A DNA stretch of 64,000 bases from Sinomonas atrocyanea. GTDB taxonomy: Bacteria > Actinomycetota > Actinomycetes > Actinomycetales > Micrococcaceae. Shown piece after piece: positions 9,597 to 61,831 of this stretch. A model generated the notes under the pieces. The model did no database searches, was not told the origin of the DNA, and saw nothing but the letters and a program-made list of their open reading frames with translations. A program made the position numbers and the translations under genes. The DNA lies in contig NZ_JAUSTE010000002.1 of NCBI RefSeq assembly GCF_030812675.1, positions 248,001-312,000 on the forward strand, in the 5' to 3' direction. Positions within the stretch are counted from its first letter, which is position 1. Every line of letters begins with the position of its first letter.

Positions 9597-9645
9597 GCCG
9601 CCTCCCGGCCGACCTCAGGGCGCGCGGCCGGCGCTGGCCGACGGT

Positions 9646-10569: not shown

Positions 10570-10695
10570 GCGGGGCTCCTCGCTCGTGCGGTCACTCACG
10601 CATCGAACGTACGACGCCGCCGGCACCTCGCGCGGGCGGGCCCGGCCGCCGCCGGGTGAACGTTGGGCGAACCTTGGGGTGCGGGAGCGATGAGT

Positions 10696-11115
10696 TCAGC
10701 GCTGGGGGCGCCAGACCACGAGGGCCTGGGAGCGTGCCTCGGGCCGCTGCCCGCGCGCGAGGCTCACGACGTCGCCGGCCATCCCGGCCGCGAACACGCG
10801 CCGGGCCTCGCTGGTGCGCTGGGTGTTGGCGAGCTCCGCCTGGAGCTCGGTCACGCGGGCGCGGAGGGCCGCGACCTGGTTCTCGAGCTCGAGGATGCGC
10901 CGGATCCCCTCGAGGGACACGCCGTCCTTCGAGAGCCGCTGGACCTCCCGGAGCATCTCGACGTCGCGCTGGGAGTAGCGCCGCTGGCGGCCGCCCTGGC
11001 GGGACGGCGAGACGATCCCCAGGCGGTCGTACTGGCGCAGGGTCTGGGGGTGCATCTCGGCCAGCTCCGCCGCCACGGAGATCACGAAGATCGGAGCGTA
11101 CGGGTCGATGGCCAT
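10696..11115 (-). CDS. hspR: Heat-shock repressor HspR (MerR family)
   Basis: A 139-residue MerR-type regulator: an N-terminal winged helix-turn-helix (VISVAAELAEMHPQTLRQYDRLGIV, then RRYSQRDVEMLREVQRL) and a C-terminal coiled-coil helix (about 80-115). HspR binds HAIR operators, often with DnaK as co-repressor, and represses the operon that encodes it. It is the last gene of dnaK-grpE-dnaJ-hspR, 3 nt after dnaJ. Two HAIR-like sites lie upstream of dnaK. Confidence 0.95.
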   Translation of the reverse strand: MAIDPYAPIFVISVAAELAEMHPQTLRQYDRLGIVSPSRQGGRQRRYSQRDVEMLREVQRLSKDGVSLEGIRRILELENQVAALRARVTELQAELANTQRTSEARRVFAAGMAGDVVSLARGQRPEARSQALVVWRPQR

Positions 11116-11118
11116 GGC

Positions 11119-12102: not shown

Positions 12103-12141
12103 GAACGCTCCTTAGGTCAACTGCTGCTTCAAGTGTGCACG

Positions 12142-12245
12142 GTTTCGGGTACGGATCTCGTCACGGATCTCCCGTTTCGGGTACGCGGGCCTGGGAGCCC
12201 GCGTACCCGAGATGCCCGGAGGGCGACGAGATGCGTACCCGAAAC
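12142..12245 (-). repeat. Structured repeat region between grpE and dnaJ
   Basis: GTTTCGGGTAC occurs at 12142-12152 and 12174-12184, and inverted at 12235-12245. Within it, 12178-12190 and 12197-12209 form a perfect 13-bp stem (CGGGTACGCGGGC) with a 6-nt loop. The copy at 12174-12184 can pair either locally or with 12235-12245, so two alternative RNA folds are possible in the operon mRNA just before the dnaJ ribosome site. Confidence 0.7.
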
Positions 12246-12255
12246 GGGGGGTGGG

Positions 12256-12930
12256 TCAGCCCTGCGGCGTCGCCACGATGACCTGGGCCGCGCGCAGCAC
12301 GCGCGCCGAGGTGCGGTAGCCCGTGCGGAGCACCTGCTGGACCGTGTCCACCTCGATGCCCTCCCCCGGCTGCTGGATGAGGGCCTCGTGGATGTTCGGG
12401 TCGAACTCGACGCCGGCCTGGTCGATCCGCTCGAGCCCCTGGCTGGCCACGATCGACTCGAGCTTGCCGGCGATCGAGGCGAACGGGCCGCCCTCGAGGT
12501 CGCCGTGGGCCCGTGCCGCGTCGATGTCGTCCAGGACCGGCAGCAGCGAGCTCAGGACGCCCATCGTGGCAGCCTCCCCGGCGACCGCGCGGTCGCGGTC
12601 CACCCGGCGGCGGTAGTTCACGTACTCGGCCTGGAGGCGCAGCAGGTCGTTGCGCAGCTCCTCCACGACGGCCGCGTGGCCCTCCTGCTCGCCGGCCTCG
12701 GCCTCGTTGAGGATCTGCTCGGCCTGGGCCAGGGCGTCGCCCGAGTCGTGGGCCTCGTCCACGGGGCGCATCTCCTCGTGGCCGTCGTCGTGCGGGGCGG
12801 CCTCGGGGGCCCCCGCGCCCTCCGGGTGCCTCGCCTCGCCGGTCACCGGGTCCACCTTGCGGTTGTCCCGGATCACCGGCTCGGGGCGCTCGGAGCCGTG
12901 CTCGTTCTCGTTTCCGTGGTGGGGGGCCAT
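12256..12930 (-). CDS. grpE: Nucleotide exchange factor GrpE
   Basis: A 224-residue GrpE. A long acidic, disordered N-terminus (about 1-60) precedes the coiled coil (about 70-115, EELRNDLLRLQAEYVNYRRRV) and the beta-domain with the family motif FDPNIHEAL and GYRTSARVLRAAQVIV. It drives ADP release from DnaK. The ATG at 12928-12930 lies 2 nt after the dnaK stop, so it is translationally coupled. The C-terminus ends at QG, close to the family's usual length. Confidence 0.95.
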   Translation of the reverse strand: MAPHHGNENEHGSERPEPVIRDNRKVDPVTGEARHPEGAGAPEAAPHDDGHEEMRPVDEAHDSGDALAQAEQILNEAEAGEQEGHAAVVEELRNDLLRLQAEYVNYRRRVDRDRAVAGEAATMGVLSSLLPVLDDIDAARAHGDLEGGPFASIAGKLESIVASQGLERIDQAGVEFDPNIHEALIQQPGEGIEVDTVQQVLRTGYRTSARVLRAAQVIVATPQG

Positions 12931-47208: not shown

Positions 47209-47664
47209 ATGGACGCTCGTGGCAGGGACCTCAGAGTGCCGCCGCAGCCCGGCGCGCGGCACGGGGTGGTCATCCCCGCCGCGGAACTCGTGGAGCGGTT
47301 CAGCCGCTCCAGCGGCCCTGGCGGGCAGGGCGTCAACACGACCGACAGCCGGGTGGAACTCCTCTTCGACCCCGGCGCGAGCGCGGCGTTCTCCGACGCC
47401 CAGCGCGAGCGCGTCATCGCGCGGCTGGAGGGCCGGCTCGCGGGGGGCCGGCTCAGCATCGTCGCCTCCGGCGAGCGCTCCCAGCTGCGCAACCGCGAGG
47501 CCGCCCGCGCCAGGCTGGTCGCGCTGCTCTCCGAGGCGCTCCTGCCGCCGGGGCCCGTCCGCCGGGCCACCCGGCCCACGAGAGGCTCGCAGATCCGCCG
47601 CCTGGAATCCAAGAAGCGCCGCGGTGAGACCAAGGCCGCCCGGCGCCGCCTCCCGCCGCCGTAG
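47209..47664 (+). CDS. arfB: ArfB-like peptidyl-tRNA hydrolase
   Basis: A 151-residue release-factor-like protein with the GGQ loop in SRSSGPGGQGVNTTDSRVEL and a basic C-terminal tail (RRLESKKRRGETKAARRR) that enters the empty mRNA channel. ArfB/YaeJ proteins free peptides from stalled ribosomes. The ATG at 47209 is preceded by a weak -10-like GAGAAT 6 nt upstream, so it may be leaderless. Confidence 0.9.
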   Translation: MDARGRDLRVPPQPGARHGVVIPAAELVERFSRSSGPGGQGVNTTDSRVELLFDPGASAAFSDAQRERVIARLEGRLAGGRLSIVASGERSQLRNREAARARLVALLSEALLPPGPVRRATRPTRGSQIRRLESKKRRGETKAARRRLPPP

Positions 47665-47676
47665 CGCCCGCACCCC

Positions 47677-47730
47677 TTGACAGTGATCCAGGCCACGCCT
47701 AGCGTGAAAAAGGGGGTATATCCTATAGGA
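47677..47730 (+). promoter_or_regulatory. Promoter and TCCTATAGGA operator of the first permease unit
   Basis: TTGACA at 47677-47682, a 17-nt spacer, then -10 TAGCGT at 47700-47705. The perfect palindrome TCCTATAGGA lies at 47721-47730, just downstream of the expected start, where a bound repressor would block elongation. The same palindrome occurs at 49190-49199 and 57506-57515. Confidence 0.75.
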
Positions 47731-47744
47731 AACAGGAGGCTATC

Positions 47745-49067
47745 GTGGCCGAAGCTGTCCACGGCGCCATCGGCAGAAAGCGCTGGACGCGCTTGATCCC
47801 CGTGGCGATCATCGTCTACATCATCTCGTTCATGGATCGGACCAACATCGGGTTCGCCCTGAACGGACTCCAGAAGGACCTCGGAATCGACGCCGCCCAA
47901 CAGGGTCTCGCGGCGGGGATCTTCTTCATCGGCTACCTGACGCTCCAGATCCCGGGCGGCCATCTGGCCGAGCGCTGGAGCGCCAAGAAGTTCGTCGGCA
48001 TCATGATCCTCGTCTGGGGGGTCCTGGCGGTCCTCGGCGGCTTCATCCAGAACTTCGGGGAGCTGCTGGTTGTCCGCTTCTTCCTCGGGGTCGCGGAGGC
48101 CGGCATCTGGCCAGCGATCCTGGTCCTCATCAGCCACTGGTTCCCCGCGGCCGAACGCGCCCGCGCCTACGCCTTCTGGATGATGAACATCGCGATCGCC
48201 TCGATCATCACCGCCCCCCTGTCCGGATGGATCCTCTCCTTCTCGGACTGGCGCTGGCTGTTCATCATCGAGGGCATCTTCCCGTTCGTGATCGCGGCGC
48301 CCATCTGGTGGCTGATGATCGCCGACCGCCCGCGCGACGCCAAGTGGTGCTCGCCCGAGGAACGCGCCTACATCGAAGAGGGCCTGGCGGCGGACGAGGC
48401 CGCCGCGCCGAAGCTCGAGCACGTGAGCATCAGGCACGTCTTCGCCAACAGCGCCGTCTGGCGCCTGACCATCGTCTACTTCCTGATCCAGATCGGCTTC
48501 TACGGCCTGAACATCTGGCTCCCGAAGGTCGTCAAGACGATCACCTCCGGTTCCTCGATCGAGGTCGGGTTCGTGACCGCCATCCCGTATGTGCTGGCCA
48601 TGTTCGCGCTGTGGTACAACGCCAAGGCGGCGGACCGCTCCGGCCGCTACTCGACGCATGTGCTGCTGTCCATGGCGGTCGGCGCCGTGGCCCTGGTCAT
48701 CTCCGTGGCCACCGGCAGTGCCATGCCGATCCTCGCGGTGACGTTCATCAGCATCGCGATGGCGGGGGCCCTGGCATACGATGGCCCGTTCTGGGCCTCG
48801 GCCTCGCGTGCCATGCCGGTGGTCGTGGCGGGCAGCGCCATGGGCCTGATCAACGCCGTGGGCAACCTGGGCGGGTTCGTGGGCCCCTACGTGGGCGGCT
48901 TCCTGCAGGACGTCACCCACGGGAGCTTCATGGCCACCTCGGTGTTCCTGGCCGCCTGCCTGCTCGCCGCGGGACTCGTGATGCTCACCCTGCGCAAGGG
49001 CGGCGACCGCCCGACGGCGGAGGCCACACCGCGCGCCGACGTCTCGCCAACCGAACGGCGGGGCTGA
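47745..49067 (+). CDS. MFS permease, anion:cation symporter branch
   Basis: A 440-residue 12-helix transporter of the ACS (phthalate/hexuronate permease) branch: RWTRLIPVAIIVYIISFMDRTNIGFA near helix 1, FIGYLTLQIPGGHLAERWSAKKFVG, and WFPAAERARAYAFW between helices. It resembles the second permease of this locus (FLDRTNVGFAQ at its first helix). Most likely it imports the substrate of the tetrulose-type pathway. The GTG at 47745 has ACAGGAGG 6 nt upstream; an operator lies in the leader. Confidence 0.9.
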   Translation: MAEAVHGAIGRKRWTRLIPVAIIVYIISFMDRTNIGFALNGLQKDLGIDAAQQGLAAGIFFIGYLTLQIPGGHLAERWSAKKFVGIMILVWGVLAVLGGFIQNFGELLVVRFFLGVAEAGIWPAILVLISHWFPAAERARAYAFWMMNIAIASIITAPLSGWILSFSDWRWLFIIEGIFPFVIAAPIWWLMIADRPRDAKWCSPEERAYIEEGLAADEAAAPKLEHVSIRHVFANSAVWRLTIVYFLIQIGFYGLNIWLPKVVKTITSGSSIEVGFVTAIPYVLAMFALWYNAKAADRSGRYSTHVLLSMAVGAVALVISVATGSAMPILAVTFISIAMAGALAYDGPFWASASRAMPVVVAGSAMGLINAVGNLGGFVGPYVGGFLQDVTHGSFMATSVFLAACLLAAGLVMLTLRKGGDRPTAEATPRADVSPTERRG

Positions 49068-49095
49068 GCAGCCCCGGAGGACTGGAGGACACCCG

Positions 49096-49136
49096 CGCCC
49101 CCGCAGGGCCCGTCACCGACGGGAGCTGCGGGGGCG
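49096..49136 (+). terminator. Terminator after the first permease
   Basis: CGCCCCCGCAG (49096-49106) pairs with its complement at 49126-49136 over 11 bp, with an inner CCCGT/ACGGG helix (49109-49113, 49119-49123). Confidence 0.7.
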
Positions 49137-49162
49137 TCCGCGTGCGCAGCATGACCGCAGAC

Positions 49163-49199
49163 TTGACGCGGGTCACGTGGTGTCAAATATCCTATAGGA
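49163..49199 (+). promoter_or_regulatory. Promoter and TCCTATAGGA operator of the kinase unit
   Basis: TTGACG at 49163-49168 and an AT-rich -10 region around 49186-49193 (AATATC or TATCCT). The palindrome at 49190-49199 overlaps the -10, so a bound repressor would block RNA polymerase. The kinase gene starts at 49253. Confidence 0.7.
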
Positions 49200-49252
49200 A
49201 AGAGGTTCGGCACTCCTGCCGCCTCAGATGACTCAATGTCGAGGAGAAGCAC

Positions 49253-50983
49253 ATGACCCGGCTGTGGAATGATCCGGCCTCCTTCGCCGATGACATGGTG
49301 GACGGCTTCGTGCGCGCGAACACCCGCTGGGTGCGCCGGGTGACGGGCGGCGTCTCACGCTCCACCCGGTCGGCTGAGCCGGAGGTCGCGCTCGTGATCG
49401 GCGGCGGCTCCGGCCACTACCCGGCGTTCGGCGGCCTCGTGGGCCCTGGCCTCGCCCACGGCGCCGCGATGGGCAACCTCTTCGCGTCCCCGTCCGCGCA
49501 CCAGGTCGAGGGCGTGATCCGGGCGAGCGAGCAGGGGCGCGGCGCGCTCCTGAGCTTCGGCAACTACGCCGGCGACGTGCTGCACTTCGGCGCCGCTCAG
49601 GAGGCCGTGCGGGCCGACGGCATCGACTGCCGCACCGTCACGGTCACCGATGACATCTTCAGCGCCCCGCCGGCCGAGGCCGAGCGCCGCCGCGGGATCG
49701 CCGGCGACCTCACCGTCTTCAAGGCCGCCGGGGCGGCGGCGGCGCAGGGCTACGGAATCGACGACGTCGAACGCGTGGCCATCACCGCGAACGCCCGCAC
49801 GCGCTCCATGGGCGTGGCCTTCACCGGCTGCACCCTCCCGGGCGCCGAGGAGCCGCTGTTCACGGTGCCCGAGGGCAAGATGGCCGTGGGCCTGGGCATC
49901 CACGGCGAGCCCGGGATCGACATCACGGACATCCCGAGCGCCGACGGCCTCGCCGAGCTCTTCATCCGGCACCTCCTGGACCCCGCCGAGATCCCCGACG
50001 GCGCCGCCGTCCGCGGCGGCCGCGTGGTTCCCATCCTCAACGGCCTCGGCTCCGTGAAGAACGAGGAGCTGTACGTGGTGTACGCGCGCATCGCAGACCT
50101 CCTCGAGGAAGCCGGGCTGACGGTCGTGGACCCGCAGGTCGGCGAGTTCTGCACGAGCTTCGACATGGCCGGCGCCTCGCTCACCCTGTTCTGGGTCGAC
50201 GACGAGCTCGAGCGGCTCTGGCTCGCCCCCGCGGACACCCCCGCGTTCCGCACCGGCTCGATGGACACCTCCGCGCTCGAGCCCGTCGCCGCGGCCGGCG
50301 AGGACGAGGCGGAGGCCGAGCTGCCGCCGTCGTCCGAGGAATCCCGCCGGGCCGCGCGGCTCATCAGCGAGGCTCTCGATGCCGTGCGGGAGCTGATCAC
50401 GGAGCAGGCCGCGGAGCTTGGCCGCATCGACGCCATCGCAGGCGACGGCGACCACGGCATCGGCATGCAGCGTGGCACGGTCGCCGCCGCGGAGGCCGCC
50501 GCCGCCCTGGCCGAGCAGGGCGCGGGCGCCGAGAGCCTCCTGGCGCGCTGCGGCGACGCCTGGTCGGACCGCGCCGGCGGCACGTCCGGGGCGCTGTGGG
50601 GCCTGATCCTCAAGACCGTCGGCTCCCACCTCGGCGACACCGAACCGGCGACCGCGCCCGCCGTCGCCGCCGGGATCGCCGCGGCCCGGGACGCGGTCAT
50701 GGAGTACGGGAAGGCGAAGGTGGGCGACAAGACGATGGTCGACGCGCTCGTGCCCTTCGCCGACACGCTCTCCGCGCGGGTGGAGGCCGGCGAGGGCCTC
50801 GCCGCGGCCTGGCAGCGCGCGGCCGCCGCAGCGGCCCAGGCCGCGGAGGCGACGGCGGACCTCATGCCCGGGATGGGCCGGGCCCGCTCGCACGGCGCCA
50901 AGTCGCTCGGCGCGCCGGACCCGGGGGCGGTCTCCCTGGCCCTCATCGCCGAACGCGTCCACACGGTCCTCGCGGCCCGCTGA
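49253..50983 (+). CDS. DhaK-DhaL fused kinase, probably a tetrulose (erythrulose-type) kinase
   Basis: A 576-residue ATP-dependent dihydroxyacetone-kinase-type enzyme. The DhaK half has GGSGHYPAFGG and His217 in GLGIHGEPGI, the residue that binds the ketose covalently. The DhaL half (from about 360) has the Mg/ATP Asp triad at 393, 398 and 400 (DAIAGDGDHG), GGTSGALWG and GDKTMVDAL. GAGGAGAAG lies before ATG 49253. Similar fused kinases phosphorylate L- or D-erythrulose in erythritol/threitol pathways; the rpiB-like and TIM-like isomerases directly downstream support this over plain dihydroxyacetone. The substrate is inferred. Confidence 0.88.
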   Translation: MTRLWNDPASFADDMVDGFVRANTRWVRRVTGGVSRSTRSAEPEVALVIGGGSGHYPAFGGLVGPGLAHGAAMGNLFASPSAHQVEGVIRASEQGRGALLSFGNYAGDVLHFGAAQEAVRADGIDCRTVTVTDDIFSAPPAEAERRRGIAGDLTVFKAAGAAAAQGYGIDDVERVAITANARTRSMGVAFTGCTLPGAEEPLFTVPEGKMAVGLGIHGEPGIDITDIPSADGLAELFIRHLLDPAEIPDGAAVRGGRVVPILNGLGSVKNEELYVVYARIADLLEEAGLTVVDPQVGEFCTSFDMAGASLTLFWVDDELERLWLAPADTPAFRTGSMDTSALEPVAAAGEDEAEAELPPSSEESRRAARLISEALDAVRELITEQAAELGRIDAIAGDGDHGIGMQRGTVAAAEAAAALAEQGAGAESLLARCGDAWSDRAGGTSGALWGLILKTVGSHLGDTEPATAPAVAAGIAAARDAVMEYGKAKVGDKTMVDALVPFADTLSARVEAGEGLAAAWQRAAAAAAQAAEATADLMPGMGRARSHGAKSLGAPDPGAVSLALIAERVHTVLAAR

Positions 50984-51038
50984 CCCGGCCGCAGACCCCC
51001 AACCACCACACACCCAGAACCACGACGAAGGAGCACGC

Positions 51039-51497
51039 ATGCCCGCATGGCGCATCGTGGTCGGCTCGGATGACGCCGGCTTCGACTACAAGGAAGTCAT
51101 CAAGAAGGACCTCGAGGACAACGGCCTCGTCGTCTCCGTGGCCGATGTGGGGGTGGACGCCGACGGGCACACCAACTACCCCACCATCGCCACGACCGCA
51201 GCCGAGATGGTGGCTAGGGGCGAGGCCGACCGCGCGATCCTCGTGTGCGGCACCGGCCTCGGCGTGGCGGTCGCCGCGAACAAGGTCAAGGGCATCCGGG
51301 CAGTGACGGCGCACGACAGCTTCTCGGTGGAGCGCAGCGTGCTGTCCAACAACGCCCAGGTGCTGTGCATGGGCCAGCGCGTGATCGGCATCGAGCAGGC
51401 GCGCAGGAACGTGCGCGAGTGGCTCACGTACGTCTTCGACGAAACGAGCGCCTCCAACGACAAGGTCCGCGAGATCTGCAGCTACGAAGGGCTGTGA
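51039..51497 (+). CDS. rpiB: RpiB/LacAB-type sugar-phosphate isomerase
   Basis: A 152-residue RpiB-fold isomerase: VVGSDDAGFDYK at the N-terminus, catalytic Cys70 in LVCGTGLGVAVAANKVKG, and AHDSFSVERSVLSNNAQVLCMG. In erythritol pathways such proteins (EryI/DerI) interconvert D-erythrulose 4-phosphate and D-erythrose 4-phosphate; a ribose-5-phosphate isomerase role is the alternative. AAGGAG precedes the ATG. Its stop overlaps the TIM-like gene (GTGA). Confidence 0.88.
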   Translation: MPAWRIVVGSDDAGFDYKEVIKKDLEDNGLVVSVADVGVDADGHTNYPTIATTAAEMVARGEADRAILVCGTGLGVAVAANKVKGIRAVTAHDSFSVERSVLSNNAQVLCMGQRVIGIEQARRNVREWLTYVFDETSASNDKVREICSYEGL

Positions 51498-52318
51498 GCG
51501 TGACGGCGTTTCCGCCCGTCCTCCTCGGCACGAGCACCAAGATGTACTTCACCCATGAGCGCACGCTCGCGTGGTGCCGCTCGGTCGCGGAGATCGCGCG
51601 CCGGCACCCGGCGACGGTGGGCGGTCGCGCGGGACTGTTCGTGGTCCCCGGCTACCTCTCGGTCGCGGGGGCCCTGTCGGCGCTCGGCGGCGCCGCGATG
51701 GTCGGCGCGCAGGACCTCGCGACCGAGGACTTCGGCCCGTACACGGGAGAGGTCAGCGGCGCCCAGCTCGCCGAGCTGGGCTGTTCCCTCGTGGAGGTCG
51801 GCCACGCCGAGCGGAGACGCCTGTTCGGCGAGGACGACGCCGTGGTCCGTGCCAAGACCGCCGCGGCGCTGCGCAACGGGCTCGTCCCGCTCGTGTGCGT
51901 GGGCGAGGCCCACCGCCTCGACCCGGAGGCGGCCGCCCAGGAATGCATCCGGCAGCTCGACGACGCCCTGGCCTCGGCCGGGGCGTCCGGCCTGTCCGGC
52001 CGGATCATTGCCGCCTACGAGCCGCAGTGGGCCATCGGCGCGCCCCAGCCGGCGGACCCGGAGTACATCAGGGCCGTGTGCGCTCCCCTGCGCGACCACG
52101 TCCGCGGGCTGCCCGCGCACGGGGGCTCGGCGGTCATCTACGGCGGCAGCGCCGGCCCCGGCCTCCTCACCCAGATCGCGGACTCGGCGGACGGGCTGTT
52201 CCTCGGCCGGTTCGCCCACGATCCCGCGGCGGTGGAGGCCATCCTCGACGAGGTGCTCGCCCTCCTCGGCACAGGTGTCACTGGTACTATCAGGGGCGCA
52301 GGAGGAGCCCATGACTGA
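51494..52318 (+). CDS. Triose-phosphate-isomerase-like enzyme, probably a tetrulose-phosphate isomerase
   Basis: A 274-residue TIM-barrel protein with the TIM catalytic residues: Lys16 in GTSTKMYF, His104 in EVGHAERRRLFGE and Glu176 in AAYEPQWAIG. The first loop reads GTSTKMY instead of the GNWKMN of glycolytic TIM, as in EryH/LerI-type isomerases of four-carbon pathways. GTG 51494 overlaps the rpiB stop; a GTG at 51500 is also in frame. The gntR start overlaps its last 8 nt. It is therefore unlikely to be the housekeeping tpiA. Confidence 0.85.
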   Translation: MSVTAFPPVLLGTSTKMYFTHERTLAWCRSVAEIARRHPATVGGRAGLFVVPGYLSVAGALSALGGAAMVGAQDLATEDFGPYTGEVSGAQLAELGCSLVEVGHAERRRLFGEDDAVVRAKTAAALRNGLVPLVCVGEAHRLDPEAAAQECIRQLDDALASAGASGLSGRIIAAYEPQWAIGAPQPADPEYIRAVCAPLRDHVRGLPAHGGSAVIYGGSAGPGLLTQIADSADGLFLGRFAHDPAAVEAILDEVLALLGTGVTGTIRGAGGAHD

Positions 52319-53033
52319 GACCGTCTACCCCCTCGCCGGGGCCGCAGCCCTCGAGCGTCGGGGGCTGCGCGACCGCGTCTACGACCTCGTCCTGGACATG
52401 CTCATGACGGCGGACCTCGCCCCGGGCACCCGGCTCTCCATCGACGCGATCGCCCGGGACCTCAAGGTCTCCCCCACCCCCGTCCGGGAGGCGCTCGTGC
52501 AGCTCGAGCGCACCGGGCTCGTGACCCGGGAAGCGCTCAAGGGCTACCGTGTCGCCCCGCCGCTGGCCGAGGAGCACCTCGAGGCGCTCTTCGACGCCCG
52601 GCTGGTGCTCGAGGGCGGCGCGACGGAGCTCGCGGCCCGCCACGCGGAGGCGCTCGTGCCCCGCCTCGAGCAGGCGCTCGCCGAGCACATCGAGATCTCG
52701 CACCTCGTGGACCAGACAGTGGACGAGGGCGAGAAGCTTTCCGTGGGCCTCATCCGCGACTATTTCGCGGTCGACTGGAACTTCCACCACCTCATCTTCG
52801 AGGGCACGCAGAACCCGTTCCTGATCGACATGTCCGAGGCGATCTCGACCCGCGTCCACCGCATGCGCCAGACCGTCAAGTCCGGTGTGAGCGACGCGGA
52901 CGAGGCCGTGATCGAGCACGGGGCCATCCTCGATGCCTTCCGCTCCGGGGAGCCGGGCGCCGCGACGCGCGCCATGCGGGACCACATCGAGCGCGTCCGC
53001 GAGCGGGCGCGGCGGGACGTCGCCTCCAGCTGA
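52311..53033 (+). CDS. GntR-family (FadR/FCD) repressor of the locus
   Basis: A 240-residue regulator: N-terminal winged helix (LRDRVYDLVLDMLMTADLAPGTRLSIDAIARDLKVSPTPVREALVQLERTGLV) and C-terminal FCD ligand domain, with expected metal-binding Asp/His (DARLVLEGGATELAARH, FHHLIFEGTQNPF, EHGAILDAFRSGE). AGGAGG precedes the ATG. It closes the kinase operon and is the best candidate to bind the TCCTATAGGA sites, including the one in its own promoter. Confidence 0.9.
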   Translation: MTETVYPLAGAAALERRGLRDRVYDLVLDMLMTADLAPGTRLSIDAIARDLKVSPTPVREALVQLERTGLVTREALKGYRVAPPLAEEHLEALFDARLVLEGGATELAARHAEALVPRLEQALAEHIEISHLVDQTVDEGEKLSVGLIRDYFAVDWNFHHLIFEGTQNPFLIDMSEAISTRVHRMRQTVKSGVSDADEAVIEHGAILDAFRSGEPGAATRAMRDHIERVRERARRDVASS

Positions 53034-53046
53034 CACCCCAGGACGC

Positions 53047-53091
53047 ACGACGTCGGCCGGTCACCTCCGCGAGGTGACCGGCCGACGTCGT
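53047..53091. terminator. Perfect 21-bp terminator hairpin, convergent
   Basis: Arms 53047-53067 and 53071-53091 match perfectly over 21 bp with a CGC loop. It serves the kinase/gntR unit and, with the next hairpin, separates it from the opposite operon. Confidence 0.85.
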
Positions 53092-53126
53092 ACTCCCGTG
53101 CGGGCTCCCAGCCCGGCGGCCGACGC

Positions 53127-53164
53127 CGGCGCCCCCGGTCCTCCGCAGAGGACCGGGGGCGCCG
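53127..53164. terminator. Second perfect terminator hairpin, convergent
   Basis: Arms 53127-53143 and 53148-53164 pair over 17 bp with a four-base CGCA loop, 35 nt from the first hairpin and 14 nt before the permease stop on the other strand. Confidence 0.8.
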
Positions 53165-53178
53165 TGTGCCAGTAGGGA

Positions 53179-54555
53179 TCAGTGGACCGGGGTGAACTCC
53201 TCGGCCTCGAGCAGCTCGTCCGACTTCGCGCCCTTGAAGAACTTGGTCGCGAAGACCATCGCCGCGGCGAGGAAGGCGAAGACGCCCAGGGACACCACGC
53301 CCCACTCGCCGCTCTTGGTGGGCATCGCGTCGTTGAACGCGGTCCGCATGAGCGGGGCCACGAAGCCGCCGAGGTTGCCCAGGGAGTTGATGAGGCCGAT
53401 GCCGGCCGCGGCCGCGGCTCCCGTGAGGAAGGCGGTGGGGTAGGCCCAGGTGATCGGGCCGACCGTCAGGAAGCTGGCCACGGCGAGGGTGATGAACACG
53501 ATGCCGAGCAGCGGCTGGCTGTTCGCTCCGGCCCAGGCGGACCCGAGGATGAACACGCCGGTGCCGATGTAGAGCAGGCTGCCCCAGTTGCGCCGGCGGG
53601 CCACGGTGTGGGCGGCCTTGCCGAGGAAGTAGCACGCGAACAGGCCCACGAGCCACGGGATGGCGGAGACGAGGCCCACCTCCCAGCCGACCTTCTTGCC
53701 GAGCAGGCCAGCGACCTCCTGCGGGAGGTAGAACGTGGTGCCGTAGACGGCGATCTGGAGGGCGAAGTAGATGACCGTGAAGTACCAGACTTTCCAGTTC
53801 GCCATGGCGCGCCAGATGCCGCTGGGGCCGTCCTCGGTGCGGGCACGGTCCTCGACCGCCATCGCGTTCGAGAGGGCAAGCTTCTCCTCGTCGGAGAGGA
53901 ACGTGGCCTTCGCCGGGCTGTTCGTGAGGAGGAACAGGGCCGCGATGCCCGCGATGACGGCGAGCACGCCCTCGGCGAAGAACATGACCTGCCAGCCGCG
54001 GGCGAAGCCCAGGGAGTCGCCGAAGCTGATCAGCCCGCCGGAGAGCGGCGCCCCGATCATCTGGGAGAACGGCTGGGCGAGGTAGAAGATCGCGAACATC
54101 TGCACGCGGACCTTGTTCGGGAACCACTCGGACAGGAACATGATCACGCCGGGGAAGAGGCCCGCCTCGGTGACGCCCAGGAGGAAGCGCAGCACGTTGA
54201 ACATGACGTCGTCGGTCGTGAAGGCGAACGCGGCCGCGACGATGCCCCAGGTGATGGAGATGCGGGCGAGCCAGAACCTGGCGCCGAAGCGCTTCAGGAG
54301 CAGGTTGCTGGGGACCTCGAAGAGGGCGTACCCGATGAAGAAGATGCCGGCACCGAGGGCGAACGCGGCGTCGCCGACGCCGCGGTCCGCCTTCAGCGCG
54401 GCCTGGGCGAAGCCCACGTTGGTCCGGTCGAGGAAGGCAACGAAATAGAGGATCACCAGCATCGGCATCAGGTGCCGTGCGGCCTTCGAGATGGCGGATT
54501 TCAGCGCAATGTCATGCGCCGAGGGCGCGGCCGTCCGCGGAGCGGGCAGGGTCAC
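53179..54555 (-). CDS. Second MFS permease of the locus, ACS branch
   Basis: A 458-residue 12-helix transporter of the same ACS branch as the first permease (HLMPMLVILYFVAFLDRTNVGFAQ, LFEVPSNLLLKRFGARFWLARI, LGVTEAGLFPGVIMFLSEWFP). The GTG at 54553-54555 has AAAGGAG 7 nt upstream. It is the last gene of the minus-strand operon (sugar isomerase-like, dehydrogenase, SDR, small membrane protein, permease), so it probably imports the same or a related compound. Confidence 0.9.
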   Translation of the reverse strand: MTLPAPRTAAPSAHDIALKSAISKAARHLMPMLVILYFVAFLDRTNVGFAQAALKADRGVGDAAFALGAGIFFIGYALFEVPSNLLLKRFGARFWLARISITWGIVAAAFAFTTDDVMFNVLRFLLGVTEAGLFPGVIMFLSEWFPNKVRVQMFAIFYLAQPFSQMIGAPLSGGLISFGDSLGFARGWQVMFFAEGVLAVIAGIAALFLLTNSPAKATFLSDEEKLALSNAMAVEDRARTEDGPSGIWRAMANWKVWYFTVIYFALQIAVYGTTFYLPQEVAGLLGKKVGWEVGLVSAIPWLVGLFACYFLGKAAHTVARRRNWGSLLYIGTGVFILGSAWAGANSQPLLGIVFITLAVASFLTVGPITWAYPTAFLTGAAAAAGIGLINSLGNLGGFVAPLMRTAFNDAMPTKSGEWGVVSLGVFAFLAAAMVFATKFFKGAKSDELLEAEEFTPVH

Positions 54556-54617
54556 GTCAGCTCTCCTTTGAGATGAACCCGTGGGGTGTCGGTGATGGAA
54601 CGGAAAAAGGGTGGTGC

Positions 54618-54722
54618 TCAGCGGCCCTGCAGGAGCGTGACGACGCCGACGGCGACGAACACGACCCCGATGGCCAGGAACGCGAGGCGGGACTTCGACC
54701 AGGGGCCGAGGAGGGATTTCAC
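54618..54722 (-). CDS. 34-residue single-helix membrane protein
   Basis: A short frame between the SDR and permease genes: GTG 54720-54722 to TGA 54618-54620. The product has a basic start (SLLGPWSKSR) and one strong membrane helix (about 12-30, LAFLAIGVVFVAVGVVTLL). ACGGAG lies 9 nt before the GTG, and the start is 15 nt after the SDR stop. The GC pattern by codon position and the clean helix support a real gene; a small subunit of the following permease is possible. Confidence 0.6.
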   Translation of the reverse strand: MKSLLGPWSKSRLAFLAIGVVFVAVGVVTLLQGR

Positions 54723-54737
54723 GAGGGGTGCTCCGTC

Positions 54738-55505
54738 TCAGTGCATGTAGAGGCCGCCGTCGACGTTCAGGGTCTGGCCCGTCACGAAGCCGGCATCCTC
54801 GCTGATGAGGTAGGCGATGGCCGCGGCGATGTCCCGCGGGGTGCCGATGCGCGGCAGCACGCCGTCGGCCGCCATCTTCTCCTTGCGCTCGTCCGTGAGC
54901 GTGCCGCCCATGATGTCCGTGTCGATCGGCCCGGGCGAGATCGCGTTGGCGGTGATGCCCTGCTGGCCGAGCTCGCGGGCGATGCTGCGGGTGAACCCGA
55001 TGACGCCCGCCTTGGCCGCGGAGTACACGGTCTTGCTGTAGGTCCCGCCGCCGCGCTGGGCGGAGACCGAGGACAGGCTGACCACGCGGCCCACGCCGTG
55101 CTTGACCATGGACTCGACGGCGCGGCGGGTGGCGTAGTGGACGCCGTTCATGTTGATGCCCATGACGCGGTTCCACTCGTCCGCCGTGACCTCGAGGTAC
55201 GGCACCGGCGAGGAGACGCCGGCGAGGTTCACGAGCGCCACGATCTGGGGCAGCTGCCCCTCGAGCTCGTCGAACGCGGCGCGGACCTGCGCCTCGACCG
55301 AGACGTCGGCGCCGGCGCCCGCGGCCTGGACGCCGTGCTCGAGCGCGATCTCCTCGGCCACGCGCTTGGCGGCCTCGGCCTCGACGTCGATGATGCCGAT
55401 GTTCCAGCCGCGCTCGGCGAGGTAGTGGGCGGACGCGCGGCCGATGCCGCGCGGGGAGGCCGCGCCGGTCAGGATGACGGTGCGGGAAGCGGGGAAGTCA
55501 GTCAT
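54738..55505 (-). CDS. Short-chain dehydrogenase/reductase, probable polyol dehydrogenase
   Basis: A 255-residue classical SDR: TGAASPRGIGRASA (cofactor loop), NLAGVS, catalytic Ser in SLSSVSAQ and YxxxK in VYSAAKAGVIGFTRS, with the C-terminal SEDAGFVTGQTLNVDGG. Some bacterial threitol and related polyol dehydrogenases are SDRs, so oxidation of a four-carbon polyol to the ketose is a fair inference. It starts at ATG 55503-55505, 16 nt after the upstream dehydrogenase stop. Confidence 0.9.
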   Translation of the reverse strand: MTDFPASRTVILTGAASPRGIGRASAHYLAERGWNIGIIDVEAEAAKRVAEEIALEHGVQAAGAGADVSVEAQVRAAFDELEGQLPQIVALVNLAGVSSPVPYLEVTADEWNRVMGINMNGVHYATRRAVESMVKHGVGRVVSLSSVSAQRGGGTYSKTVYSAAKAGVIGFTRSIARELGQQGITANAISPGPIDTDIMGGTLTDERKEKMAADGVLPRIGTPRDIAAAIAYLISEDAGFVTGQTLNVDGGLYMH

Positions 55506-55521
55506 GCGGTTCTCCTGGTCC

Positions 55522-56499
55522 TCAGTGGGCAGCCGCGGCGGGCGCGGACTGGATGGGGGCGGGGCCGAGCTCGTCCATGAGCTTCTTGATGGCCACGTAG
55601 GCCTTGTTGCGGTAGGCGACCAGCTCCGGGGTGCGGTCCGCGGGGACGTCGAGGTAGCCGGCGCCGGACTTGGTGCCGAACTTGCCGGCGTCCACGAGCT
55701 CCTTGAGGGACTCCGGCGTGGCGAACCTCTCGGGCCAGCGGGTCTGCAGCGACGCGTAGCAGAAGGCGTACACGTCAAGGCCCGCCATGTCCGCGATCGC
55801 GAACGGCCCGAAGACGGGCAGGCGGAACCCGAACGTGGTGCGCACGATCGTGTCGATGTCCTCGGGGGTCGCGATGCCCTCCTCGACGATCTGCGTGGCC
55901 TCGTGGAACAGCGCGTACTGGAGCCGGTTGAGCACGAACCCGGTCGCGTCCTTCACCCGCGCCGTCTCCTTGCCGGTGGAGGCCACGAGCTCCTCCACGA
56001 GGGGGATGACGGCCTCGTCGGTCCCGGCGTGCGGGATGAGCTCGACTCCGGGGATGAACGGGGCGGGGTTGGAGAAGTGCACGCCGAGGAAGCGCTCGGG
56101 GTTCGTGACGGCCTCAGCGAGCGAGGCGATGAGGATTGTCGAGGTGTTGGAGCCGATGACGGCGTCCGGCCGGGCGGCCGCGCTGATGCGGCGGAGGGTC
56201 TCGTGCTTGATCTCGATCTTCTCGGGCACGGCCTCCTCGATGAAGTCGGCGTCGGCCACCGCCTCCTCGATGGACGGGGCTGGCGAGAGGTGCGCCTCGA
56301 GGCGCGCGACGGCGTCCTCCGGGAAGAGCCCGTCCGCCACGAACTGGGCTGCCTCGGCGAGGAGCCGCTCGTAGTTCTTGGTGGCGATCTCCTCGGAGAT
56401 GTCGGCGATCTTCACGGTGGCGCCGGCGAGCGCGAGGACCTGGGCGATCCCGCCGCCCATGTAGCCGGAGCCGACGACGGCAACGGTGATGTCAGGCAT
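55522..56499 (-). CDS. 3-hydroxyacyl-CoA-dehydrogenase-family enzyme
   Basis: A 325-residue protein with the N-terminal NAD domain (VAVVGSGYMGGGIAQVLALAG), SNTSTILIASLAEAVTNPERFLGVHFSNPAP with the catalytic His, and the C-terminal domain (TGFVLNRLQYALFHEA). In sugar-acid or polyol pathways this fold acts on hydroxy acids or polyols (for example L-gulonate 3-dehydrogenase) rather than acyl-CoA, which fits the neighbours better. TAGGAGGA lies before ATG 56497-56499. Confidence 0.85.
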   Translation of the reverse strand: MPDITVAVVGSGYMGGGIAQVLALAGATVKIADISEEIATKNYERLLAEAAQFVADGLFPEDAVARLEAHLSPAPSIEEAVADADFIEEAVPEKIEIKHETLRRISAAARPDAVIGSNTSTILIASLAEAVTNPERFLGVHFSNPAPFIPGVELIPHAGTDEAVIPLVEELVASTGKETARVKDATGFVLNRLQYALFHEATQIVEEGIATPEDIDTIVRTTFGFRLPVFGPFAIADMAGLDVYAFCYASLQTRWPERFATPESLKELVDAGKFGTKSGAGYLDVPADRTPELVAYRNKAYVAIKKLMDELGPAPIQSAPAAAAH

Positions 56500-56507
56500 G
56501 GTTCCTC

Positions 56508-57446
56508 CTAGCCCTTGGGGAGCAGAGTGCGGATGTACTTCTGGTTCGTGGCGCAGACGCCGAGGCTGTCGCCGCCGTACTGCTCGGTGAGGATGATCCC
56601 GTCGAAGCCGAGGGCGATGGCGTCGCGGAACACCTCGCGGTAGTTGATGAGGCCCGTCTCCATGGTCGAGGGGACCGAGGTGGCCCAGCTGCCGTCCGCG
56701 GCCTCGTCCCGCGTGTAGTTCTTCACGTGCCAGTAGTTGGCGTACGGGAGGGTCTTGTCGAAGAGGTAGCGCCAGTCCTCGACGGGCCGGTGGAGCCGGA
56801 TGAGGTTGGCGACATCGGGGTTGAGGCCCACGTTGTCCAGGCCCACCTCCTCGATGAAGCGCACGGCGCTGTCCGCCGTGCCGATGTAGGTGTCCTCGTA
56901 CATCTCGAGGGACATGCGCAGGCCGAGGTCCGCGGCGTGCTTGCCGAGCTCGCGGATGCGGCCGACGGCGGTGTCCCACACCTCGCTGTCGTCGGGGTCC
57001 TTGGGGCCCTCGGCGGTCCAGAACCACAGGGCCTTGCGCTGGGCCTCGCTGAAGGGCTGGTGGAGGCCGGTCGAGAAGACCTGCATGCCCCACTCGGCCG
57101 CCGCCTCGATGGTCCGGTGGGCGTAGGCGAGGTTGCGCTCCTCGTGGCCGGGCATGATCACGCTCTGGCGCTGGAGGTGGACCGACGGGATGCCGACCCC
57201 GTGGGACTTGGCGATGGCGAGGAACTCGTCCCGGCGCGCGGGCTCTAGGTCGGCGGGGCGGACGTGGCTGTCCGCGAGTTCGGCAAGGGTGAAGCCGACG
57301 TCGGCGATCTGGGCGAACATGTCGTCCCAGACCTCGGGCGATGCATCGTGCATCGCCACTCCCGTGCGGCGGTCCACCGCCTGGAAACCGTGGAGGCAGG
57401 TCGCGATCGGCCATGACTCTGCCGTGAACGCTGGTTGGTTCGACAT
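56508..57446 (-). CDS. Sugar-phosphate isomerase/epimerase-like TIM-barrel protein
   Basis: A 312-residue xylose-isomerase/AP-endonuclease-2-type barrel. Metal ligands are expected in LRMSLEMYEDTYIG (Glu), LDNVGLNPDVANL (Asp), YWHVKNYTRDEA (His) and DGIILTEQYGGDS (Glu). Related proteins include tetrulose-phosphate racemase EryC, hydroxypyruvate isomerase and 3-oxo-tetronate isomerases. It heads the minus-strand operon, behind the TCCTATAGGA operator. The ATG at 57444-57446 is used; a longer frame upstream would run across the operator. Confidence 0.85.
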   Translation of the reverse strand: MSNQPAFTAESWPIATCLHGFQAVDRRTGVAMHDASPEVWDDMFAQIADVGFTLAELADSHVRPADLEPARRDEFLAIAKSHGVGIPSVHLQRQSVIMPGHEERNLAYAHRTIEAAAEWGMQVFSTGLHQPFSEAQRKALWFWTAEGPKDPDDSEVWDTAVGRIRELGKHAADLGLRMSLEMYEDTYIGTADSAVRFIEEVGLDNVGLNPDVANLIRLHRPVEDWRYLFDKTLPYANYWHVKNYTRDEAADGSWATSVPSTMETGLINYREVFRDAIALGFDGIILTEQYGGDSLGVCATNQKYIRTLLPKG

Positions 57447-57504
57447 GGTGCTCCGTTGCAGCTGGTGGGTGAAGAACGCCGCCGTGAGGCAGCTCACGAA
57501 AAAG

Positions 57505-57532
57505 ATCCTATAGGAAATATGCTTGCTGTCAA
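57505..57532 (-). promoter_or_regulatory. Promoter and TCCTATAGGA operator of the minus-strand operon
   Basis: On the minus strand TTGACA (57532-57527), 16 nt, then -10 TAGGAT (57510-57505). The palindrome at 57506-57515 covers the -10, about 60 nt before the isomerase-like start. Confidence 0.75.
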
Positions 57533-57692
57533 CGGGCCGGGAACCCTGAGGACTCACGTGCGCGGCCTCGGGAGCCAGGTGCGCACGGCGGGACGCCGAG
57601 ACAGGACGGACGAGGTCCCTCAACGGGGCACAGGTGACTCGCCACCGCTGCGGAGGCGGCTCCTCAACGGGACATGGGTGGCTCCTGGCCGG

Positions 57693-58802
57693 CTAGGGGA
57701 CGTCCCACCCGCCGTCGCGCTGCTGCGTCGCCTCGACGGCGGCGTGCACGACGGCGGCCAGCCCCTCGCCGTCGGACGCGGCCTCGCGCTGGGCGCGCTC
57801 CCCCGAGCCGCGGGCGAGCACGCCGCGGACGGCCCGCTCGGCCCCGGCGAGCTCGCCGGCCTCGCGGAGCACGGGCCCCACGTGCTCGAGCAGCGCGGCG
57901 AGCGCGTCCTCGGCCGGGACTGGCCGGCCGGTGCGCGGGTCCACGAGGTCGCCGTTGAGCCCGGAGCGGCTGGCGCGCCAGGCCGCCAGTCGCAGTACGG
58001 CGCACGGGCTGCCGAGCGGCGGCCGGCCCTCGGTGGCCTCGCGGGCGGCGGTCTCGACGAGGCCGCGGACGAGGACCGCGACGAGGGCCGAGTCGGCGGC
58101 GTTGAGGCAGACGTCGGAGGCGCGCACCTCCACGGTCGGGTGGCGGCGCGAGAGGCGGGCATCGAAGTACACCATGCCCTCGTCGAGGATGCCTCCAGTG
58201 CCCACCATGGACGCCACGAGCCGGTCGTAGGCCTCCGCCGAGCCGAAGGGCTCCTGCGGGCCGGAGGTGGGCCAGCGGTTCCACACCTGGGTGCGGAAGC
58301 TCGCGTAGCCGGTGTTCGCCCCGTGCCAGAACGGCGAGTTCGCGCTCAGCGCCGCGAGCAGGGGCAGCCACTCGCGGATCCGGTCGAGGATGCCCACGCC
58401 CTCCTCGGCGGAGGAGATGGAGACGTGCACGTGCAGCCCACAGGTGAGCTGCTCGAGGGCGGTCAGGCGGTACTCCTCGGCCATGGCCGCGAACCGCTCC
58501 CCCTCGCTCAGGTGGGTCGCGGAGCTCAGCGGCGAGGTCCCGAGGGCCGCGATGCGGGCGCCGACCTGCCGCGCCGCCCGGTCCAGGGCGCGCCGGCCAT
58601 GGTAGAGCTGGCCGAGCAGCTCCTCGTGCGTGGTGCAGGGCTCCGTCTGGACCTCGACCTGTTCGAGCTTGAACTCGCGCTCCACGTCCCGCGGACGGCC
58701 CATGACCGCCAGCACCCGGTCCACGAGCGGCTGGGGCGCGCCCGTCTCCGGGTCCACGATCAGCAGCTCCTCTTCCGCCCCAAAGCTCCGCATACCGGCC
58801 AT
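57693..58802 (-). CDS. YbdK-family carboxylate-amine ligase (glutamate-cysteine ligase 2-like)
   Basis: A 369-residue ATP-dependent ligase of the GCS2/YbdK family. The N-terminus RSFGAEEELLIVDPETG and ALEQLTCGLHVHVSI, plus RRHPTVEVRASDV, are typical. YbdK joins glutamate (or a similar carboxylate) to an amine or cysteine weakly; a role in thiol or compatible-solute synthesis is inferred. The ATG at 58800-58802 is used, but the ATG at 58791-58793 (FGAEEE beginning) is equally possible. Codon use is normal. Confidence 0.85.
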   Translation of the reverse strand: MAGMRSFGAEEELLIVDPETGAPQPLVDRVLAVMGRPRDVEREFKLEQVEVQTEPCTTHEELLGQLYHGRRALDRAARQVGARIAALGTSPLSSATHLSEGERFAAMAEEYRLTALEQLTCGLHVHVSISSAEEGVGILDRIREWLPLLAALSANSPFWHGANTGYASFRTQVWNRWPTSGPQEPFGSAEAYDRLVASMVGTGGILDEGMVYFDARLSRRHPTVEVRASDVCLNAADSALVAVLVRGLVETAAREATEGRPPLGSPCAVLRLAAWRASRSGLNGDLVDPRTGRPVPAEDALAALLEHVGPVLREAGELAGAERAVRGVLARGSGERAQREAASDGEGLAAVVHAAVEATQQRDGGWDVP

Positions 58803-60709: not shown

Positions 60710-61831
60710 TCAGCCGTTGTCCCCGGCCGGGGTCGAGCTCGCGGTGTAGCCCTCGAGCTTGAGGGCCGCCTGGGCGTACTTCTGGGTGAACGTGTCCGAG
60801 ACCTTGATCTTGGAGGTGTCCACGCCGATGGTCTTCTCCTCCTCGAAGATCGTCGTGGGCCCGCCGGCGGGCATGATGCCGTCCGGCAGGAACTGCGCCT
60901 TGTCCTGGTCCAGTGCCTTGACGTACTGGTCCTTGGAGATCGTGGCGTTCTGGACGTAGGACTGCGGCAGCTTGTCCGCGATGTCCGCCGCCGAGTGCGT
61001 GCTGATCCAGTGCATCGTGTCCACGAGCGCGTCGACGACCTTCTGGGCGGCGTCCTCGTGGGACTTCACCCAGTCGGCCTGGGCCAGCAGACCGGCCGAG
61101 GGGAGGGTGCCGCCGAGCGCGGCCTTCGCGCCGTCCGCCGTGGCCAGGTCGATCGCGGGGACTGCGAGGTTCTTCGACTCCAGCGCCCCGACGGTGGGCT
61201 GCGTGGTCATGACGCAGTCCGCCGAGCCTCGCTGGATCGCCGCGATGGCGGTGGCGCCGGCGCCCACGGCGATGGTGTGGTAGTCGTTCTTCGACAGGCC
61301 CGCCTTGGACGCGATGAACTGGGTGAGCTCGTCGGTGCCGGAGCCGAGGTCCGTCACGCCCACGGTCTTGCCCTTGAGGTCCGCCCCTGTGTGGACGTTG
61401 GCCTTGGGGCTGCACATGATGCGCTCGCCGGGGGCCCCGGAGAGCTGGACGAGGTTGATGACGTTCTTGCCCTTGGACTGGAAGTCGACCGTGTGGATGT
61501 ACCAGGCGCCGGCCATGTCGACCTGGCCCGAGGCCATCGCGTCCTCGGCGCCGACGCCGCCCTGCTGCTCCGTGGAGAGCTCCACCTTGACGCCGTACTT
61601 CTGGTAGTAGCCCAGCTGCTGGGCGAGTTGGTACGGGAGGTAGATCTGCTTGTCGATGCCGCCGACCATGAGCTTGACGGTCGGCATGTTCGCGGTGTCG
61701 GCGCTGGAGCCGCCGCTCGCGGTGCTCCCGCTCGAGGCGGTGGTGCCGCCGCAGGCGGACAGGCTCAGCGCCACGGCTCCGGCGGCGGCTGCGGCGTAGA
61801 TGCTGCGCTTCATCTTCATTGTTTTACGCAT
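60710..61831 (-). CDS. ABC importer substrate-binding lipoprotein (NMT1/SsuA-like)
   Basis: A 373-residue periplasmic-binding-type lipoprotein. The signal peptide ends at the lipobox LSACGG; then a Ser/Gly-rich linker and an NMT1/SsuA-like domain (KLMVGGIDKQIYLPYQLAQQLGYYQKYGVKVELS, LKGKTVGVTDLGSGTDELTQF). Family members bind sulfonates, nitrate or thiamine precursors. Start codons at 61831, 61819 and 61813 are possible; the first has AGAGG directly before it. It is the last gene of the ABC operon. Confidence 0.88.
   Translation of the reverse strand: MRKTMKMKRSIYAAAAAGAVALSLSACGGTTASSGSTASGGSSADTANMPTVKLMVGGIDKQIYLPYQLAQQLGYYQKYGVKVELSTEQQGGVGAEDAMASGQVDMAGAWYIHTVDFQSKGKNVINLVQLSGAPGERIMCSPKANVHTGADLKGKTVGVTDLGSGTDELTQFIASKAGLSKNDYHTIAVGAGATAIAAIQRGSADCVMTTQPTVGALESKNLAVPAIDLATADGAKAALGGTLPSAGLLAQADWVKSHEDAAQKVVDALVDTMHWISTHSAADIADKLPQSYVQNATISKDQYVKALDQDKAQFLPDGIMPAGGPTTIFEEEKTIGVDTSKIKVSDTFTQKYAQAALKLEGYTASSTPAGDNG

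Follow-up and report, generated by a model that had tools for sequence, protein, structure and literature searches.

A three-unit regulon with one shared operator in Sinomonas atrocyanea and its possible role in converting a sugar acid to L-erythrulose

Results

Genes and operator of the locus

We analyzed positions 47677-57532 of a 64,000-nt stretch of DNA (the window) from the soil actinobacterium Sinomonas atrocyanea, where nine genes form three transcription units, each preceded by the same palindromic operator. A preliminary description of this DNA had listed two ACS-type permeases, a kinase, isomerases, a barrel protein, a 3HCDH-type dehydrogenase, an SDR and a GntR regulator, and profile matches re-found all nine genes. 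Unit 1, on the forward strand, carries the ACS-type permease MFS1 (47745-49067), whose nearest model, the D-galactonate transporter TIGR00893, scores 282 bits, below its cut-off of 395. Unit 2, also forward, runs from a DhaK-DhaL fusion kinase, probably an L-erythrulose kinase (49253-50983), through an RpiB-like isomerase, probably acting on D-erythrulose 4-phosphate (51039-51497), and a TIM-like isomerase, probably acting on L-erythrulose 1-phosphate (51494-52318), to a GntR/FCD regulator as its closing gene (52311-53033). The convergent unit 3, on the reverse strand, comprises a xylose-isomerase-like barrel of the AP_endonuc_2 family (XIL, 56508-57446), a 3HCDH-type dehydrogenase (HCDH, 55522-56499), an SDR oxidoreductase, possibly an aldose or alcohol dehydrogenase (54738-55505), and a second ACS-type permease, MFS2, a probable sugar-acid importer (53179-54555). 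The SDR is an optional member, recognized in 64 of the 80 related loci described below, and MFS2 is present in 61 of them.

The palindrome TCCTATAGGA, which the preliminary description placed in the promoters of all three units (47721, 49190 and 57506), is exact at each position. Operator 1 (47721-47730) lies 14 bases ahead of the MFS1 start, the place that it also takes in two related loci (L004 and L005), and 15 bases past a promoter-like TTGACA-17-TAGCGT pair (47677-47705, forward strand) that was read by eye and went unreported by the consensus scan. Operator 2 (49190-49199) precedes the kinase unit, close to a weak promoter-like pair also read by eye, and operator 3 (57506-57515) lies 59 bases ahead of the XIL start. 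The scan of positions 47600-57700 returned a single promoter-like site, TTGACA-16-TAGGAT of unit 3 (57532-57505, reverse strand; shuffle mean 0.3), whose -10 element lies inside operator 3. Operators that overlap or closely follow promoters in this manner suggest the geometry of repression.

The preliminary description had named random scatter of the palindrome across the genome as an outcome that would speak against it, and had called for a genome-wide motif search. This search, performed on the 4,120,037 bases (4.12 Mb) of the S. atrocyanea genome with zero mismatch, returned three copies, all at the locus and one upstream of each unit, and the reversed-pattern control gave 0 matches. When up to two mismatches were allowed, the window contained 12 sites versus a shuffle mean of 5.26, and none of 100 shuffles reached 12. 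The tie of the operator to this gene set is thus strong. The regulator carries a winged helix (PF00392, 57.7 bits) and an FCD domain (PF07729, 83 bits), both over cut-off; as the closing gene of unit 2, which follows operator 2, it is probably autoregulated. No publication on this operator or gene set was present among the literature matches listed (20 of 249, 20 of 40, 20 of 83 and 12 of 26 for the longer lists), which is no proof of absence, and the six papers that contain the letters TCCTATAGGA deal with other subjects, to judge by their titles and the opening lines of their abstracts.

The operator in related loci and genomes

Relatives were collected by one search with the XIL protein, of which the best 80 of 315 were kept (1,577,415 bases). 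These loci hold 113 exact copies of TCCTATAGGA, where a first-order Markov estimate predicts 0.045. Of these copies, 70 precede XIL, 39 the kinase, two MFS1 and two a PdxA gene (L024 and L075), placing 111 of the 113 upstream of a barrel, kinase or permease gene. Ahead of XIL, the exact site is missing in ten of the 80 loci: in five (L016, L068, L074, L077 and L082) a copy with one mismatch lies close to the start of XIL, and the other five (L026, L040, L053, L075 and L078) have neither form there. Among the 70 loci with a DhaKL match, the exact site precedes the kinase in 39 and is absent from that place in 31; in most Curtobacterium loci the kinase follows XIL within one gene run. Of the 70 XIL operators, 8 have a TTGACA-like box that stands 15-18 nt ahead of TAGGA, so that the overlap with a -10 element holds only for the window and a small number of relatives.

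When GntR/FCD homologues were counted at a minimum of 40% identity (at least 40%), regulator and site occurred together in 72 of the 80 loci, the regulator alone in four, the site alone in none and neither in four; the site is therefore found in 72/76 loci with a homologue and in 0/4 without. Across 66 GntR proteins encoded in loci with a palindrome, of which some are just 40-45% identical to that of the window, the helix VSPTPVREAL and the wing GYRVAP are at least 95% conserved at most of their residues. The six GntR proteins whose loci lack an exact site share this helix or carry a V to I variant of it, and thus the helix fits a common operator and neither proves nor predicts a site. The co-occurrence indicates that the GntR/FCD protein is the likely reader of TCCTATAGGA, and the three units are likely to be under this one repressor. 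The preliminary description had made it the dedicated repressor of the locus; its part as cognate regulator of the shared operator is borne out as likely, and direct binding and repression are what we infer from the arrangement of the sites. We note that in four loci (L011, L014, L015 and L031) the GntR protein is just 41-42% identical and differently placed, with the operator unchanged. In addition, a D-isomer-specific 2-hydroxyacid dehydrogenase-like gene was seen by eye near the GntR gene or in the unit in L091, L092, L095 and L107 (confirmed by Pfam in L091 and L095).

Among 197 genomes of the same family, the exact palindrome occurs in 48 of the 55 that have XIL and in 16 of the 142 that do not (Fisher p 2e-24, uncorrected for relatedness). 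Both positions were listed for 34 genomes, and in 28 of these the palindrome lies 15-92 bases ahead of XIL, even where, as in many of them, the XIL proteins are merely 52-58% identical; in the remaining six, the closest of the sites listed is either 1.7-3.4 kb upstream (five genomes) or on another contig (G188). A set of 20 hand-picked genomes contains 38 sites, with 32 inside the XIL locus, one within 2 kb of its end and five elsewhere, the last number being equal to that of the reversed pattern in the same genomes. Two of the five off-locus palindromes were viewed: one, in the Clavibacter genome of L034 (region L126), is flanked by genes for a purine/cytosine-type permease and for another GntR/FCD protein, and the other, in the Glycomyces locus L143, is about 39 bases ahead of a 2-hydroxyacid dehydrogenase gene. 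Since both are promoter-type places, a wider regulon is possible there.

A broader set of 115 loci was assembled from the 80 best XIL relatives, four plasmid regions, 20 family loci and 11 class loci; it was picked by XIL similarity, and the last three groups were hand-chosen for diversity. The exact site is present in 72/80, 1/4, 15/20 and 4/11 of these groups, respectively (92/115 in total), and in none of the three rhizobial plasmids. The palindrome switch is thus the rule in nearer loci and patchy further out. Two class-level loci (L144 and L145) have the TIM-like and RpiB-like isomerases, kinase, XIL, HCDH and a GntP carrier; the palindrome directly precedes the kinase, which is followed by a weak GntR match (36-38%).

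Probable erythrulose-phosphate enzymes

The kinase, TIM-like and RpiB-like enzymes are 59%, 53% and 47% identical to those of a Pantoea plasmid cluster (L121), whose neighbors are a PGDH_C/KARI-like enzyme and a barrel, and the two isomerases are 36% and 39% identical to those of an ery-type operon (L120). We take the Pantoea cluster, as well as the rhizobial locus L123, to be D-apionate pathways with an L-erythrulose branch. The RpiB-like protein scores 201 bits against TIGR02133 (cut-off 168) and 136 bits against the DerI model NF051858, whose cut-off of 240 is not reached. At the level of families, the three enzymes agree with the erythrulose-phosphate set proposed in the preliminary description, and erythrulose is a likely intermediate. 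The genome encodes another TIM on contig C5 that scores 293 bits against PF00121, compared to 162 for that of the cluster, and the cluster RpiB is one of three RpiB-family matches, with further DhaK matches elsewhere too; the cluster enzymes are therefore likely to be specialized.

A second kinase cluster lies outside the window on contig C2 of the same genome (approximately 368.9-374.4 kb; 6920-12400 of region L116). It contains an MFS symporter, an AP_endonuc_2 barrel, an SDR (44% identical to that of the window), a DhaK-DhaL kinase (53%) and an RpiB-family match, with no TIM-family match and no palindrome, and is possibly the true D-erythrulose or tetritol locus.

HCDH and XIL

HCDH (PF02737/PF00725) retains the H..E pair typical of the 3HCDH fold and has SNP..IP..E at its substrate site, where the coenzyme A (CoA) enzymes aligned have FNP..MK..E, a pattern absent from HCDH. 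Its stretch GFRLPVFGP..DMAGLD aligns gap-free with PDB entry 4om8, named there as a dehydrogenase of a free pyridine carboxylate. The residues S143, N144, P145, I149, P150 and E153 are invariant in 23 sequences, as are all other positions of the two patterns save V229. Like this FHMPC 5-dehydrogenase (34% identity) and L-gulonate 3-dehydrogenase (3ado, 27% identity), which use the 3HCDH fold on free acids and not on CoA esters, HCDH resembles a non-CoA enzyme that oxidizes a 3-hydroxy acid; the substrates of both differ from the one that we propose below.

For XIL, the PF01261 match (95.4 bits) and a predicted model of good quality (predicted local distance difference test, pLDDT, 83.6) both give the barrel fold of the ketose 3-epimerase (AP_endonuc_2) superfamily. 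Its nearest solved relative in sequence and fold is 5tnv, a xylose isomerase-like TIM barrel protein of Mycobacterium smegmatis (42% identity in the structural alignment), whose entry title states no function and whose code appears in no paper among the matches listed (best 20 of 83). E181, D211, H240 and E288 are invariant in 30 sequences and are candidates for the four metal ligands (E-D-H-E) of the superfamily. At E 1e-3, BLAST matched XIL neither to the Pantoea barrel nor to the one in the EryC position of L120, and a role as EryC was dismissed on the latter ground. With epimerase-like fold neighbors and no BLAST hit to these known barrels, the XIL step, which may be decarboxylation of a beta-keto acid or its epimerization/isomerization, is the least certain of all.

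Carrier and dehydrogenase swaps

In the 115 loci, the dehydrogenase slot is filled by HCDH only in 94, by PdxA only in 14, by both in one and by neither in six. The carrier in HCDH-only loci is MFS2 (68), GntP (10) or none that was recognized (16), with TctA absent throughout; PdxA-only loci show TctA (11) or no recognized carrier (3), and neither MFS2 nor GntP occurs among them. The three PdxA-only loci without a recognized carrier are the rhizobial plasmids, whose annotation includes TTT genes. Counting by score thresholds, sugar-acid/carboxylate carriers (ACS-type MFS2, GntP or TctA) are found in 91/115 loci, in addition to these three plasmids. Pfam matches in sampled loci confirmed the identities of PdxA, TctA and GntP, and one locus, L024, combines HCDH and PdxA modules with an exact site ahead of each. 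ACS-type MFS, GntP and TTT carriers are families known for sugar acids and other carboxylates. Computation shows swaps of both enzyme and carrier, and the exchange of HCDH for PdxA, each with its own family of acid carriers, suggests that the imported substrate is likely to be a sugar acid, and not a polyol.

A scan for pentose-related neighbors, which sought relatives of six proteins (GH51, ALO, GH39, GH3, AKR and SGL), detected GH39 in three of the 115 loci (L026, L043 and L147), a beta-xylosidase-like GH3 in three (L094, L096 and L104, partial and about 8 kb away), a GH51 arabinofuranosidase together with an ALO-type oxidase in one (L149) and an SGL lactonase in one (L105). We also observed a DUF1537-type acid-sugar kinase in 13/80 loci and a 3-hydroxyisobutyrate-dehydrogenase-like gene in 14/80, adjoining the XIL cluster (L011, L031, L040, L082, L153 and others); this pair may serve tetronate utilization.

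Discussion

A possible route from a sugar acid to L-erythrulose

We propose, with a probability of about one half, that the locus is a GntR-switched regulon for uptake of an acid, its 3-oxidation by HCDH and a XIL step to L-erythrulose, the enzymatic steps, substrate and inducer being inferred from sequence comparisons. A sugar acid, probably of plant origin, would enter through the ACS-type permeases, HCDH would oxidize its 3-hydroxyl (C3) to generate a beta-keto acid, XIL would decarboxylate or isomerize the latter to L-erythrulose, and the kinase and the two isomerases would convert L-erythrulose to erythrose 4-phosphate. Loss of CO2 from a 3-keto acid yields erythrulose only from a five-carbon acid, and the TIM-like enzyme is required for the L-form of erythrulose. 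A C4 ketose made by CO2 loss would therefore call for a five-carbon sugar acid as input; an L-pentonate such as L-arabinonate would fit best, and L-arabinonate itself is a guess that may be right perhaps one time in four. We can advance only tentatively the fuller version, in which this would be an unassigned bacterial C5 aldonic-acid route, with HCDH or PdxA catalyzing C3 oxidation and XIL a new decarboxylase that generates L-erythrulose and CO2. The same reserve applies to its distribution, which would cover Micrococcales, scattered other Actinomycetes and rhizobial plasmids, with the TCCTATAGGA/GntR switch in most Micrococcales loci seen.

Several points weigh against this proposal. The predicted model of HCDH is of modest quality (mean pLDDT 71.9), and its fold search ranks CoA enzymes and 4om8 (third) together, with no separation. 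The TIM-like and RpiB-like enzymes are just 35% and 42% identical to those of L123, which in its record has a named OiaX and which carries TIM, RpiB and a PGDH_C gene; these values do not exceed the similarity to the ery-type isomerases (36% and 39%). No carrier was recognized in 16/94 HCDH-only loci, the glycoside-hydrolase neighbors are few and may be accidental, and the counts are not independent, since the loci are related and were sampled by XIL similarity. The role of the SDR is unexplained. PdxA-type enzymes are oxidative decarboxylases that decarboxylate their own product, so that PdxA loci should need no separate decarboxylase, yet they keep XIL. Lastly, the XIL fold list after 5tnv consists mostly of ketose 3-epimerases, at 12-18% identity.

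Alternative explanations

The last two points favor a doubtful, though still serious, sub-case of the same proposal, in which XIL would be a ketose or keto-acid epimerase/isomerase and decarboxylation would be spontaneous or performed by the dehydrogenase; its odds are not additive with those of the proposal as a whole. Most of the folds in question belong to D-tagatose, psicose, ribulose or xylulose-phosphate 3-epimerases, and the invariant E181, D211, H240 and E288 would suit such an enzyme, as would the oxidative decarboxylation by PdxA-type enzymes. The low identity to the listed epimerases argues in the other direction, as does the fact that D-erythrulose can be phosphorylated directly, which would make an epimerase step superfluous for it.

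The preliminary description had read the genes as a complete tetritol/tetrulose locus with two MFS permeases in place of an ABC importer. Its erythrulose-phosphate enzyme set is supported at the level of families, and there is indeed no ABC gene among the nine; the permeases, however, are of sugar-acid families, and carriers of such families in 91/115 loci speak against a tetritol or tetrulose as the imported substrate. If that reading held, the SDR would oxidize threitol or erythritol, or the permeases would import erythrulose, with HCDH and XIL as accessories. The trio of kinase, TIM-like and RpiB-like enzymes would suit it, and the cluster is carried by many genomes of Curtobacterium, a genus from which strains were isolated on L-erythrulose and D-erythrose (PMC12780249). 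On the other hand, HCDH is kept more often (73/80 loci) than the SDR (64/80), Clavibacter loci such as L037 have HCDH and XIL without SDR or MFS2, the alternative carriers are GntP and TTT, and a second kinase-RpiB-SDR cluster without TIM exists elsewhere in the genome. Against the GolD/DthD model NF005309 the SDR scores 153.7 bits, missing the cut-off of 286, and thus does not qualify as a dedicated tetritol dehydrogenase by the models at hand, among which none for EltD was seen. With acid-type carriers, an HCDH/PdxA slot and an SDR below cut-off, a complete tetritol locus is not supported, and we consider it unlikely.

Huang et al. (2015) reportedly described a D/L-threitol and erythritol pathway in M. 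smegmatis. This pathway, as summarized in PMC12780249, can be compared to the Sinomonas locus: the two probably share the logic of erythrulose kinase and isomerases ending in D-erythrose 4-phosphate, whereas none of the nine Sinomonas genes encodes an ABC polyol importer, the SDR is under the GolD/DthD cut-off, and there are additional HCDH and XIL genes and acid-type permeases. The ery operon of Brucella and rhizobia (EryABC, EryH and EryI) likewise shares TIM-like and RpiB-like isomerases (at the identities given above for L120), but the nine genes include neither an FGGY kinase nor a GlpD-like gene, and XIL does not match the L120 barrel found at the place of EryC.

We regard as very unlikely a D-apionate pathway with HCDH and XIL in the roles of ApnO and OiaC. 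Carter et al. (2018) are said to have described D-apionate catabolism with an L-erythrulose branch (ApnO, OiaC, LerK, LerI and DerI), with ApnO as a PGDH_C-type oxidoisomerase. The branch shares the kinase, TIM-like and RpiB-like enzymes with Sinomonas, as well as the order of oxidoreductase, barrel, kinase and isomerases seen in the Pantoea cluster, which gave the top identities for this downstream half among the few clusters compared; several host genera are, in addition, plant-associated. In Sinomonas, however, a 3HCDH enzyme (or PdxA in relatives) replaces PGDH_C, XIL has no match to the Pantoea barrel, and D-apionate offers no oxidizable 3-hydroxyl. The search for PGDH_C (PF16896) gave 0 matches in this genome and was positive in 4/6 other genomes or records, with its 14 built-in controls matching nowhere; since no such enzyme was found, the pathway is disfavored and was dismissed for this genome. 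Moreover, a single contig of L040 carries a PGDH_C gene alongside the XIL module, and in the Curtobacterium genome of L047 a PGDH_C match is located at a great distance from the XIL locus. The L040 gene (3-650) is ApnO-like, 58% identical to that of Pantoea and about 9 kb from XIL.

Hardly credible, finally, is an ordinary 3-hydroxyacyl-CoA dehydrogenase in a mixed group of central-metabolism genes. Pfam and NCBIfam do place HCDH in 3HCDH models (below the curated NCBIfam cut-offs), but the nine genes include no CoA ligase, thiolase or hydratase, the substrate site has the non-CoA pattern, and the operator links the HCDH unit with the kinase unit across many genera.

Implications

The first steps of the proposed sugar-acid route seem to be unassigned so far, and PMC12780249 states that transporters and kinases of tetrose-using bacteria are unreported. 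If correct, the route would be a new entry into erythrulose metabolism, and could provide parts for synthetic routes built on LerI and DerI, which have been used in E. coli together with LerK and EltD (PMC10733421). It offers a testable function for a 3HCDH subfamily annotated as a fatty-acid enzyme and for the solved protein family of 5tnv. The GntR regulator gains a testable role, with an operator that can be read straight from the genome, and the very low background of this operator makes it a handy marker for spotting the regulon in other genomes.

Neighboring features

Between the convergent units 2 and 3 lie two perfect inverted repeats, of 21 bp (53047-53091) and 17 bp (53127-53164), found by an inverted-repeat search and unflagged by the terminator scan, which requires a T run. 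A YbdK-type carboxylate-amine ligase gene (57693-58802, reverse strand) adjoins unit 3; it has no palindrome of its own, occurs in 4/80 loci and is not a regulon member. Further along the window, a gene at 60710-61831 (reverse strand) encodes an NMT1-type ABC substrate-binding protein, and another such gene (L116 12587-13642) is located beside the second kinase cluster.

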